DNA of 64,000 nt from an uncultured Actinomycetes bacterium (lineage in GTDB: Bacteria > Actinomycetota > Actinomycetes > S36-B12 > UBA10799), in the NCBI GenBank assembly GCA_946803585.1, contig CAMPEQ010000006.1, forward strand, positions 62,001-126,000, written 5' to 3'. The notes beneath the pieces were generated by a model. It saw only the letters and a list, made by a program, of their open reading frames with translations. It did no database searches and had not been told where the DNA came from. Each line of letters opens with the position of its first letter. Position 1 is the first letter of the stretch. Of this stretch, positions 51,784 to 53,546 are shown in pieces. Both the position numbers and the translations under genes were made by a program.

Positions 51784-51824
51784 GAGGGTGACTAGGCATG
51801 AAAATGGTGCTCTAGGGTTGAAAG

Positions 51825-51839
51825 TGGAGGGAAATGGAG
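51825..51839. promoter_or_regulatory. Candidate MraZ-binding direct repeats
   Basis: TGGAG occurs at 51825-51829 and again at 51835-51839, exactly 10 bases apart, with a related TGGTG at 51805. E. coli MraZ binds TGGGN repeats separated by 5 bases before mraZ. The position here, 64 bases before the mraZ ATG, suggests autorepression of the dcw operon. Confidence 0.45.
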
Positions 51840-51902: not shown

Positions 51903-52334
51903 ATGTTTCTCGGTACGCATTCCCCGTTGCTAGACGGGAAGGGTCGGCTGGTACTCCCGGCGAAGTTTCGCGACGCGCTCGCTGACGGATTGGTGTTGTC
52001 TAAAGGCCAAGACCGGTCAGTGGTGGTGTGGCCCGTCGCAGAGTTCGGTGACTACGCAAACCGTATCCGCGAGGCCTCGCGAACTGACGCACGAGCTCGT
52101 GCCTACTCACGAGTGCTCTTCTCAGCAGCATTCGATCAAGTTCCGGACAAGCAGGGGCGGATCAGCATCCCGACGCCACTTCGTGACTACGCAGACCTAG
52201 AGCGTGAATGTGTCGTCGTGGGTAATCACGACACTCTCGAGATCTGGAACCCGACGAGCTGGCAGGCGTACTTGTCAGCCCAGGACCCGGCATTCGCCGG
52301 ACTGACGGAGGAGGTGGTTCCAGGAGTCTTCTAG
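51903..52334 (+). CDS. mraZ: Transcriptional regulator MraZ
   Basis: MraZ, 143 residues, made of two AbrB-like swapped-hairpin domains. MFLGTHSPLLDGKGRLVLPAK is the first domain start, and DKQGRISIPTPLRDYADLE with VVVGNHDTLEIWNP the second. MraZ binds DNA as a ring and represses the dcw cluster in several bacteria. GGAGGG precedes the ATG. TGGAG repeats upstream are a likely operator. A structured 270-base gap separates it from rsmH. Confidence 0.94.
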   Translation: MFLGTHSPLLDGKGRLVLPAKFRDALADGLVLSKGQDRSVVVWPVAEFGDYANRIREASRTDARARAYSRVLFSAAFDQVPDKQGRISIPTPLRDYADLERECVVVGNHDTLEIWNPTSWQAYLSAQDPAFAGLTEEVVPGVF

Positions 52335-52403
52335 AACCCCGACCTACCAACACCCCACCGCAGTCCGGTGGCGTTGATTGAGGCCCCTGGCCGCCGTTTC
52401 GCT

Positions 52404-52433
52404 CCAGCGGAACACCTTCCCCGGTATCGCTGG
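52404..52433 (+). ncRNA. First CUUCCCC-loop hairpin (mraW-type RNA element)
   Basis: CCAGCG (52404-52409) pairs with CGCTGG (52428-52433), enclosing CTTCCCC at 52416-52422. The inner ACC/GGT can also pair. The mraW RNA motif of actinobacteria is described as a hairpin with a conserved CUUCCCC loop in the leader of mraW (rsmH). This copy has a less perfect stem than the neighbouring one. Confidence 0.55.
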
Positions 52434-52445
52434 ATCACGTATCGA

Positions 52446-52468
52446 TCGATGTTCTTCCCCAACATCGA
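52446..52468 (+). ncRNA. Second CUUCCCC-loop hairpin (mraW RNA motif)
   Basis: TCGATGTT (52446-52453) and AACATCGA (52461-52468) are perfect complements with exactly CTTCCCC as the 7-base loop. This matches the mraW RNA motif in loop sequence and in place, 136 bases before the rsmH ATG. It is probably a cis-regulatory element of rsmH and the downstream dcw genes; the ligand or partner is unknown. Confidence 0.75.
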
Positions 52469-52604
52469 CAGATGCGCGGACGGGGACCTGAATCCACGCC
52501 ACCAATTCATCCTCCATCTACCGGATCCGACTCCTCGACCAGTAACCAAACCAACCACTCCCAGCTCACGCGAACGTGAACCAAAAGCGGATAGAGAGGT
52601 CGCC

Positions 52605-53546
52605 ATGCATGTTCCGGTGCAGCTTGAGCAATGTCTAGACCTACTCACCCCAGCTGCTGAGCGCCCTGGTGCGGTGATGCTCGATGGAACCCTGGGACTT
52701 GGCGGCCACGCGGAGGCCTTCCTCACCAGGTTCCCCGAGTTGACGGTCCTTGGACTCGACCGGGATCCCATCGCACTGCAGAAGGCAGGTGAACGCCTTG
52801 CCCGCTTCGGTGACCGATTCGTTCCTATTGCCGGTGAGCACGAGCAGCTTGCAGAGCTACTGCCCAAGCACAACGGGGGGCAGCTAGACGCGGCGCTATT
52901 TGACCTCGGCGTATCCAGTATGCAACTCGATGAGAGCGAACGGGGCTTCTCGTATTCACGCCCGGCTCCGCTGGATATGCGAATGAACCCATCAGACACC
53001 CTGACGGCGGCTGAGGTTGTCAATACCTACAGCCCAGGGGACCTCGTGCGGGTTCTGCGGGAGTACGGCGAGGAGCGTAGTGCAACTCGGATTGTCAGTG
53101 CGATCGTTCGCCGACGCGATATTGCCCCACTAACAACGACGACGGAACTGGCTGAAATCGTTCGTGATGCTATTCCCGCGCCGGCTAAGAGAACTGGTGG
53201 GAACCCAGCGAAGCGATCGTTCCAAGCGATCCGAATTGAAGTTAACCGGGAGCTCGCAGGCTTGCCCACCGCAATAGACGCTGCGCTGGCAGCCCTAGTT
53301 GTGGGTGGACGGATTGCGGTTATCTCCTATCACTCGCTAGAAGATCGAATTATCAAACGACGATTTGCGGCTGATTCCAAGGAATCTAGCCCGATTCGTC
53401 TCCCGGTTATTCCCGACGACTCGCGGCCTCGGTTGCGGCAACTCACTAGGGGAGCGCAGGTACCGTCTGATGAGGAGATTTCTACCAATCCGCGGGCAGC
53501 TTCAGCGAAGCTTCGCGCCGTCGAGCGTGTGAGGGAGGCAGCATGA
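52605..53546 (+). CDS. rsmH: 16S rRNA (cytosine(1402)-N(4))-methyltransferase
   Basis: RsmH (MraW), 313 residues, methylating N4 of C1402 in 16S rRNA. HVPVQLEQCLDLL opens it, and the SAM site is DGTLGLGGHAEAFL (~28). FDLGVSSMQLDESERGFSY and MRMNP follow, with RSFQAIRIEVNREL and ISYHSLEDRIIKR near the C-terminus. ATG 52605 has AGAGAGG 5-6 bases upstream; the open frame continues 79 codons upstream through the RNA hairpins, so that part is leader. Its TGA overlaps the ftsL ATG. Confidence 0.95.
   Translation: MHVPVQLEQCLDLLTPAAERPGAVMLDGTLGLGGHAEAFLTRFPELTVLGLDRDPIALQKAGERLARFGDRFVPIAGEHEQLAELLPKHNGGQLDAALFDLGVSSMQLDESERGFSYSRPAPLDMRMNPSDTLTAAEVVNTYSPGDLVRVLREYGEERSATRIVSAIVRRRDIAPLTTTTELAEIVRDAIPAPAKRTGGNPAKRSFQAIRIEVNRELAGLPTAIDAALAALVVGGRIAVISYHSLEDRIIKRRFAADSKESSPIRLPVIPDDSRPRLRQLTRGAQVPSDEEISTNPRAASAKLRAVERVREAA

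Follow-up and report, generated by a model that had tools for sequence, protein, structure and literature searches.

A branched, two-armed variant of the orphan mraW motif between mraZ and rsmH in an uncultured actinomycete

The leader between mraZ and rsmH in the window (the whole stretch of 64,000 nucleotides analysed here, from an uncultured actinomycete) contains a real, conserved structure, which is a branched, two-armed variant of the known orphan mraW motif. With a probability of about 0.6 it is an mraW-type cis-acting leader, in which one to three copies of a loop are recognised by a trans factor between mraZ and rsmH and thereby tune the operon. The gap between both genes measures 270 bases, of which approximately 100 separate the element from rsmH. 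The closest named relatives of the window are Nanopelagicales and Actinomycetota MAGs. The region is organised as follows:

51903 to 52334, + strand: mraZ (MraZ transcription regulator), 5' of the element (open reading frame; Pfam PF02381, E 6e-36)
52367 to 52394, + strand: 5' strand of the outer stem (GAGGCCCC...CCGCC), the mraW core stem (fold of the gap; match of covariance model R1 at 52370-52500)
52403 to 52434, + strand: arm 1 hairpin, 8 bp and 3 bp with an internal loop, loop (C)UUCCCC at 52416-52422 (fold; compensatory changes in relatives)
52446 to 52468, + strand: arm 2 hairpin, perfect 8-bp stem, loop CUUCCCC at 52454-52460 (fold; hairpin model R2)
52476 to 52503, + strand: 3' strand of the outer stem (GCGGACGGGGACCUG), the stem sequence most conserved in the class (fold; alignment; R1)
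52605 to 53546, + strand: rsmH (mraW), 16S rRNA C1402 N4-methyltransferase, 3' of the element (Pfam PF01795, E 1.2e-107)

The two CUUCCCC hairpins that the initial annotation placed between mraZ and rsmH are indeed present, each holding one of the two CTTCCCC heptamers of the gap. In arm 1 the stems of 8 and 3 bp surround an AAC/A internal loop; the first C of the heptamer is paired in the lowest-energy fold, leaving UUCCCC as the open loop. Arm 2 had been described correctly: 52446-52453 pairs with 52461-52468 in a perfect 8-bp stem around exactly CUUCCCC, and five more pairs extend it to 52439-52475. The spacing between the arms is 11 nt. Absent from the earlier description is the outer stem (52367-52394 with 52476-52503). 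This stem encloses both arms, so that a three-way junction is predicted. The folding energy of the whole 270-nt gap, compared to dinucleotide shuffles, has a z-score of -5.2; those of the single hairpins are -3.5 and -3.8.

Several properties are shared with the mraW motif (RF01746; PMC2864571): the element lies before mraW/rsmH in a member of the Actinobacteria, its outer stem has a 3' strand with ...GGGACC, and the (A)CUUCCCC loop is found, here in two copies. The difference is seen at the end of the stem. The Rfam model describes one unbranched hairpin, whereas the stem of the window branches, in a predicted three-way junction, into two CUUCCCC arms, both of which are kept in six family members. 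Weinberg et al. (2010) considered mraW probably an RNA and probably cis-regulatory, with a role as a switch being uncertain (PMC2864571). The open literature that we searched yielded no study of the function, partner or mechanism of mraW RNA, nor a report of tandem forms, although subscription papers or the supplement of PMC2864571 may mention one.

Scanning the window with Rfam, as had been proposed, gives no match at the gathering threshold. RF01746 scores the element at 21.6 bits against a gathering threshold of 50 (E 0.035 in a 351-base search with permissive settings), while aligning over the full model (1-107) with the inner part as a longer insert. The model is narrow, because only one of the 20 relatives tested passes its threshold (Williamsia L044, 72.2 bits, with the ACUUCCCC loop in the consensus). 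Single-arm relatives outside the RF01746 core taxa also remain below it.

We gathered the mraZ-rsmH gaps from genomes of the window's order and class. Alignment A2 comprises 37 single-arm actinomycete loci, with the window's family (f1) excluded; in alignment A4 two loop registers were mixed, and it was left out of model building. Pairing is found in 86.7% of the A2 cells and 26 of the 32 pairs have changed on both sides. These levels of pairing and covariation were unmatched in 500 shuffles, and slid versions of the alignment also fell far below them. The outer stem and the terminal hairpin are strongly supported in A2. The covariance model trained on its 37 loci (R1) matches the window at 52370-52500 with 50.0 bits (E 7.6e-9), and a search of the genome returns the element as the only match (E 3.3e-7), both E-values being rough due to a shortened calibration. 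A weaker R1 match on the opposite strand arises because the long stem reads alike on either strand. Given that R1 finds the element after training without the window's family, the element belongs to the mraW type, its terminal arm having been duplicated. The mraW identity put forward initially is hence carried by R1, and RF01746 alone would not establish it. Outside the class R1 finds no match among 296 genomes of the phylum, with filters set more strictly at the cost of weak matches.

At least one CUUCCCY hairpin is recognised, by the criterion used, in 170 of 178 distinct actinomycete loci. Seven of the remaining eight have the loop on a weaker stem and one (L052) is without the heptamer. 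About 150 of the 178 loci contain one such hairpin and about 20, from several families, contain two or three; no CUUCCCY hairpin is present in the Coriobacteriia, Firmicutes and other outgroup loci. Tandem or triple arms occur in families f1, f3, f7, f14, f18 and f34. The tandem loci are L001-L006 in f1 (L031 and L032 share their gaps with L005 and L004, respectively, and are probably the same genomes), L017, L019, L021, L023, L024 and L028 in f3, L040/L051 and L137/L138 in f7, L117 in f18, L187 in f34 and L218 in f14; L140, also from f3, has three arms. Double counts for L185, L210 and L222 were excluded as overlapping, weak or possibly located within mraZ.

The tandem form is real: relatives retain both arms, and each stem shows compensatory changes, for which the initial annotation had proposed to look. 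Between the genomes of six f1 members up to seven of the ten arm 1 pairs and five of the ten arm 2 pairs differ on both sides, and both loops nonetheless read CUUCCCC in all six. When the two arms of one genome are compared, only 5 to 7 of 21 flanking positions are identical in the window's genus (near chance) and 10 in L002, against seven of seven loop positions within f1 genomes. To judge from these comparisons the f1 duplication is an old one. In contrast, the arms of L187 are identical and those of L117 nearly so, and other members of the L117 genus have one arm; duplication there is therefore recent, and recurrent. The exact and near-exact copies also show that the arm is the unit that duplicates. 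All three arms of L140 (565-708, - strand) carry CUUCCCU, with the same change of the last loop base in each, suggestive of concerted evolution of the copies or of a single partner that they follow. In L008, another f1 member, both stems are kept but the CUUCCCC loop of arm 1 is lost, so two loops are not essential everywhere.

The hairpin model R2 scores arm 2, which is part of its training set, at 30.3 bits (E 2.2e-5 in the window). Used to look for a regulon of such hairpins in the genome it yields one clear match; the other matches are weak and, where examined, coding. As no other convincing hairpin is found in the genome, the site appears dedicated to the mraZ-rsmH operon.

The leader is non-coding, since in four of the seven family loci examined the rsmH frame is interrupted by stops upstream of 52605; a 392-aa open reading frame that would make the leader a coding extension of rsmH was rejected for this reason. 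Neither an intrinsic terminator on the coding strand nor a promoter consensus was found. Some further observations concern the surroundings. Upstream of mraZ (51804-51839) TGG repeats (ATGGTG, GTGGAG, ATGGAG) with a spacing of about 10 or 20 bases resemble MraZ DNA boxes, and similar repeats (TGGGGCC) precede mraZ in relatives. A tRNA gene is located near mraZ in relative L006 (2327-2400, + strand); Rfam detects no tRNA in the window. Each MraZ match in eight genomes of genus g12 (G022, G026, G045, G151, G153, G158, G163 and G164) contains one in-frame TGA, which might reflect recoding or else a premature stop close to the C-terminus that the search passed over. Several relatives (L046, L048, L009-L013, L016, L025, L027 and L040) have a small open reading frame of about 44 to 78 codons with one hydrophobic stretch (for example MSTITEFAHHPMVRSIRTGAVVIAAGVMTGSVLYGLSIVVSTWA) between the mraW element and rsmH. 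It is missing from the window, and scanning three of its copies against Pfam gave no match.

Stem and loop come apart in family f24, which consists of 11 genomes of 6-10 Mb from one genus (L230-L234, L247-L257). No MraZ is found in these genomes by protein search or by Pfam search, and RsmH is retained (57-61% identity). In five of the 11, R1 detects the outer stem ahead of rsmH; a pattern search adds further ones, and the stem is still recognisable in most f24 loci. CUUCCCC, however, is absent from ten of the 11 genomes and kept in one member (L230/L257), whereas nearly all MraZ-bearing loci keep it (L052, which bears MraZ, is without the heptamer). As the stem persists without MraZ and the loop is mostly gone, the stem is not tied to mraZ but the loop may be; the latter is a lead only, coming from a single phylogenetic event. 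Several f24 loci without CUUCCCC have an unpaired UCCCCUUC in common on the 3' side of the hairpin.

Under the reading that we favour, the long stem with its conserved 3' strand GGGGACC would close a three-way junction holding the two CUUCCCC arms. Both loops would present the same recognition site to a trans-acting factor, which is probably a protein, and its binding between mraZ and rsmH may set the amount or translation of the mRNA for rsmH and the downstream division and cell-wall genes. A second arm would add valency, with the copy number setting avidity. An invariant loop on a drifting stem, in variable copy number, is the pattern expected of a site recognised by a trans factor. We infer control of rsmH and the downstream genes from the position of the element, and likewise we infer the binding of a factor, its identity and the direction of control. 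The earlier proposal of two sites for one partner fits the invariant loops, the diverged stems, the range of one to three arms and the triple CUUCCCU of L140. For the switch proposed alongside it there is no supporting sign, as neither a coding-strand terminator nor specific pairing of the loop with the ribosome-binding site of mraZ or rsmH is seen. In Corynebacterium glutamicum the 5' end mapped for rsmH mRNA falls within the 3' strand of the motif (PMC3890552), and in C. diphtheriae the motif is located upstream of the rsmH start site (PMC5784534). The 5' ends in these two species lie within the motif or shortly behind it, and some of the rsmH mRNA may therefore lack it.

A chance coincidence of inverted repeats and a common C-rich heptamer can be practically dismissed. 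The window contains no excess of the heptamer as such (13 copies observed, 9.1 expected), but among 3000 dinucleotide-preserving shuffles of the gap two copies occur in seven and two within hairpins in none, and the conservation and covariation across the class already contradict this explanation. It is rather doubtful that the element is a processing site, where RNase III or a similar enzyme would cut the outer stem and so part the mRNAs of mraZ and of the rsmH operon, while the arms would only shape or protect the site. About 24 paired positions and a near-invariant GGGGACC are in line with this, as are the C. glutamicum 5' end within the motif (PMC3890552) and the cleavage of mraZ mRNA by RNase III in this species, as stated in the title of Maeda 2016 (via PMC8247434). 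The reported cut is however in the mraZ coding region, and the 5' ends in C. glutamicum and C. diphtheriae were interpreted as primary starts. Processing moreover leaves the seven invariant loop bases and the repeated duplication of the loop unexplained.

Binding of the CUUCCCC loops by MraZ, resulting in post-transcriptional feedback on the cluster, is unlikely. The contrast between the MraZ-less f24, with its mostly recognisable stem and lost loop, and the MraZ-bearing loci argues for it, but this is one event only, and L230/L257 and L052 deviate from the pattern in opposite directions. Also, MraZ is known as a DNA-binding protein and is not known to bind RNA. The extended version, in which the loop number (one to three) would tune this feedback and the loop would be dropped upon loss of MraZ, is slightly less probable again; if true, this known DNA-binding regulator would act on RNA as well. 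Long-range antisense pairing of the loop with the ribosome-binding site of mraZ or rsmH is improbable. CUUCCCC is able to pair with GGGGAAG-like sites and many mraZ leaders score 18-19 of 19 points (for example L046 and L049), yet among 21 letter permutations the real loop comes 12th when the rsmH site is the target, 6th with the mraZ site and 5th when the whole downstream region is considered. These ranks show no specific signal for an anti-Shine-Dalgarno loop, and the loop is constant while the ribosome-binding sites vary. A shade more improbable is autoregulation by RsmH, which would bind a C-rich loop resembling its 16S rRNA target around C1402. The element is unique in the genome and directly precedes rsmH, also in the mraZ-less loci L230-L234, and its C-rich loop resembles a methyltransferase substrate. 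Against this, there is little sequence similarity to the 1402 region, and f24 retained RsmH but mostly lost the loop.

CsrA/RsmE GGA-loop RNAs contain several hairpins with differing stems and a common loop, and their valency matters. The element is similar in repeating a recognition loop on differing stems, by analogy and with no homology claimed; it differs in loop sequence and, instead of titrating as an sRNA, occupies a leader position flanked by two genes. The UpsM leader of the Rhodobacter sphaeroides dcw cluster (PMC5089854), likened here by description and not by sequence, is also a structured RNA at the gene cluster and is processed. It differs in lying before mraZ, ending in a terminator, yielding an sRNA and belonging to an unrelated taxon.

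Since 2010 the mraW RNA has remained an orphan motif. Its recurrent two- and three-hairpin versions across the actinobacteria point to the loop as the putative docking site. The CUUCCCC hairpin duplicates as a unit and retains its loop despite a drifting stem; it can also disappear, in which case the outer stem usually remains. The loop is thus the part to use as bait, and loci with one, two and three arms provide a natural valency series.
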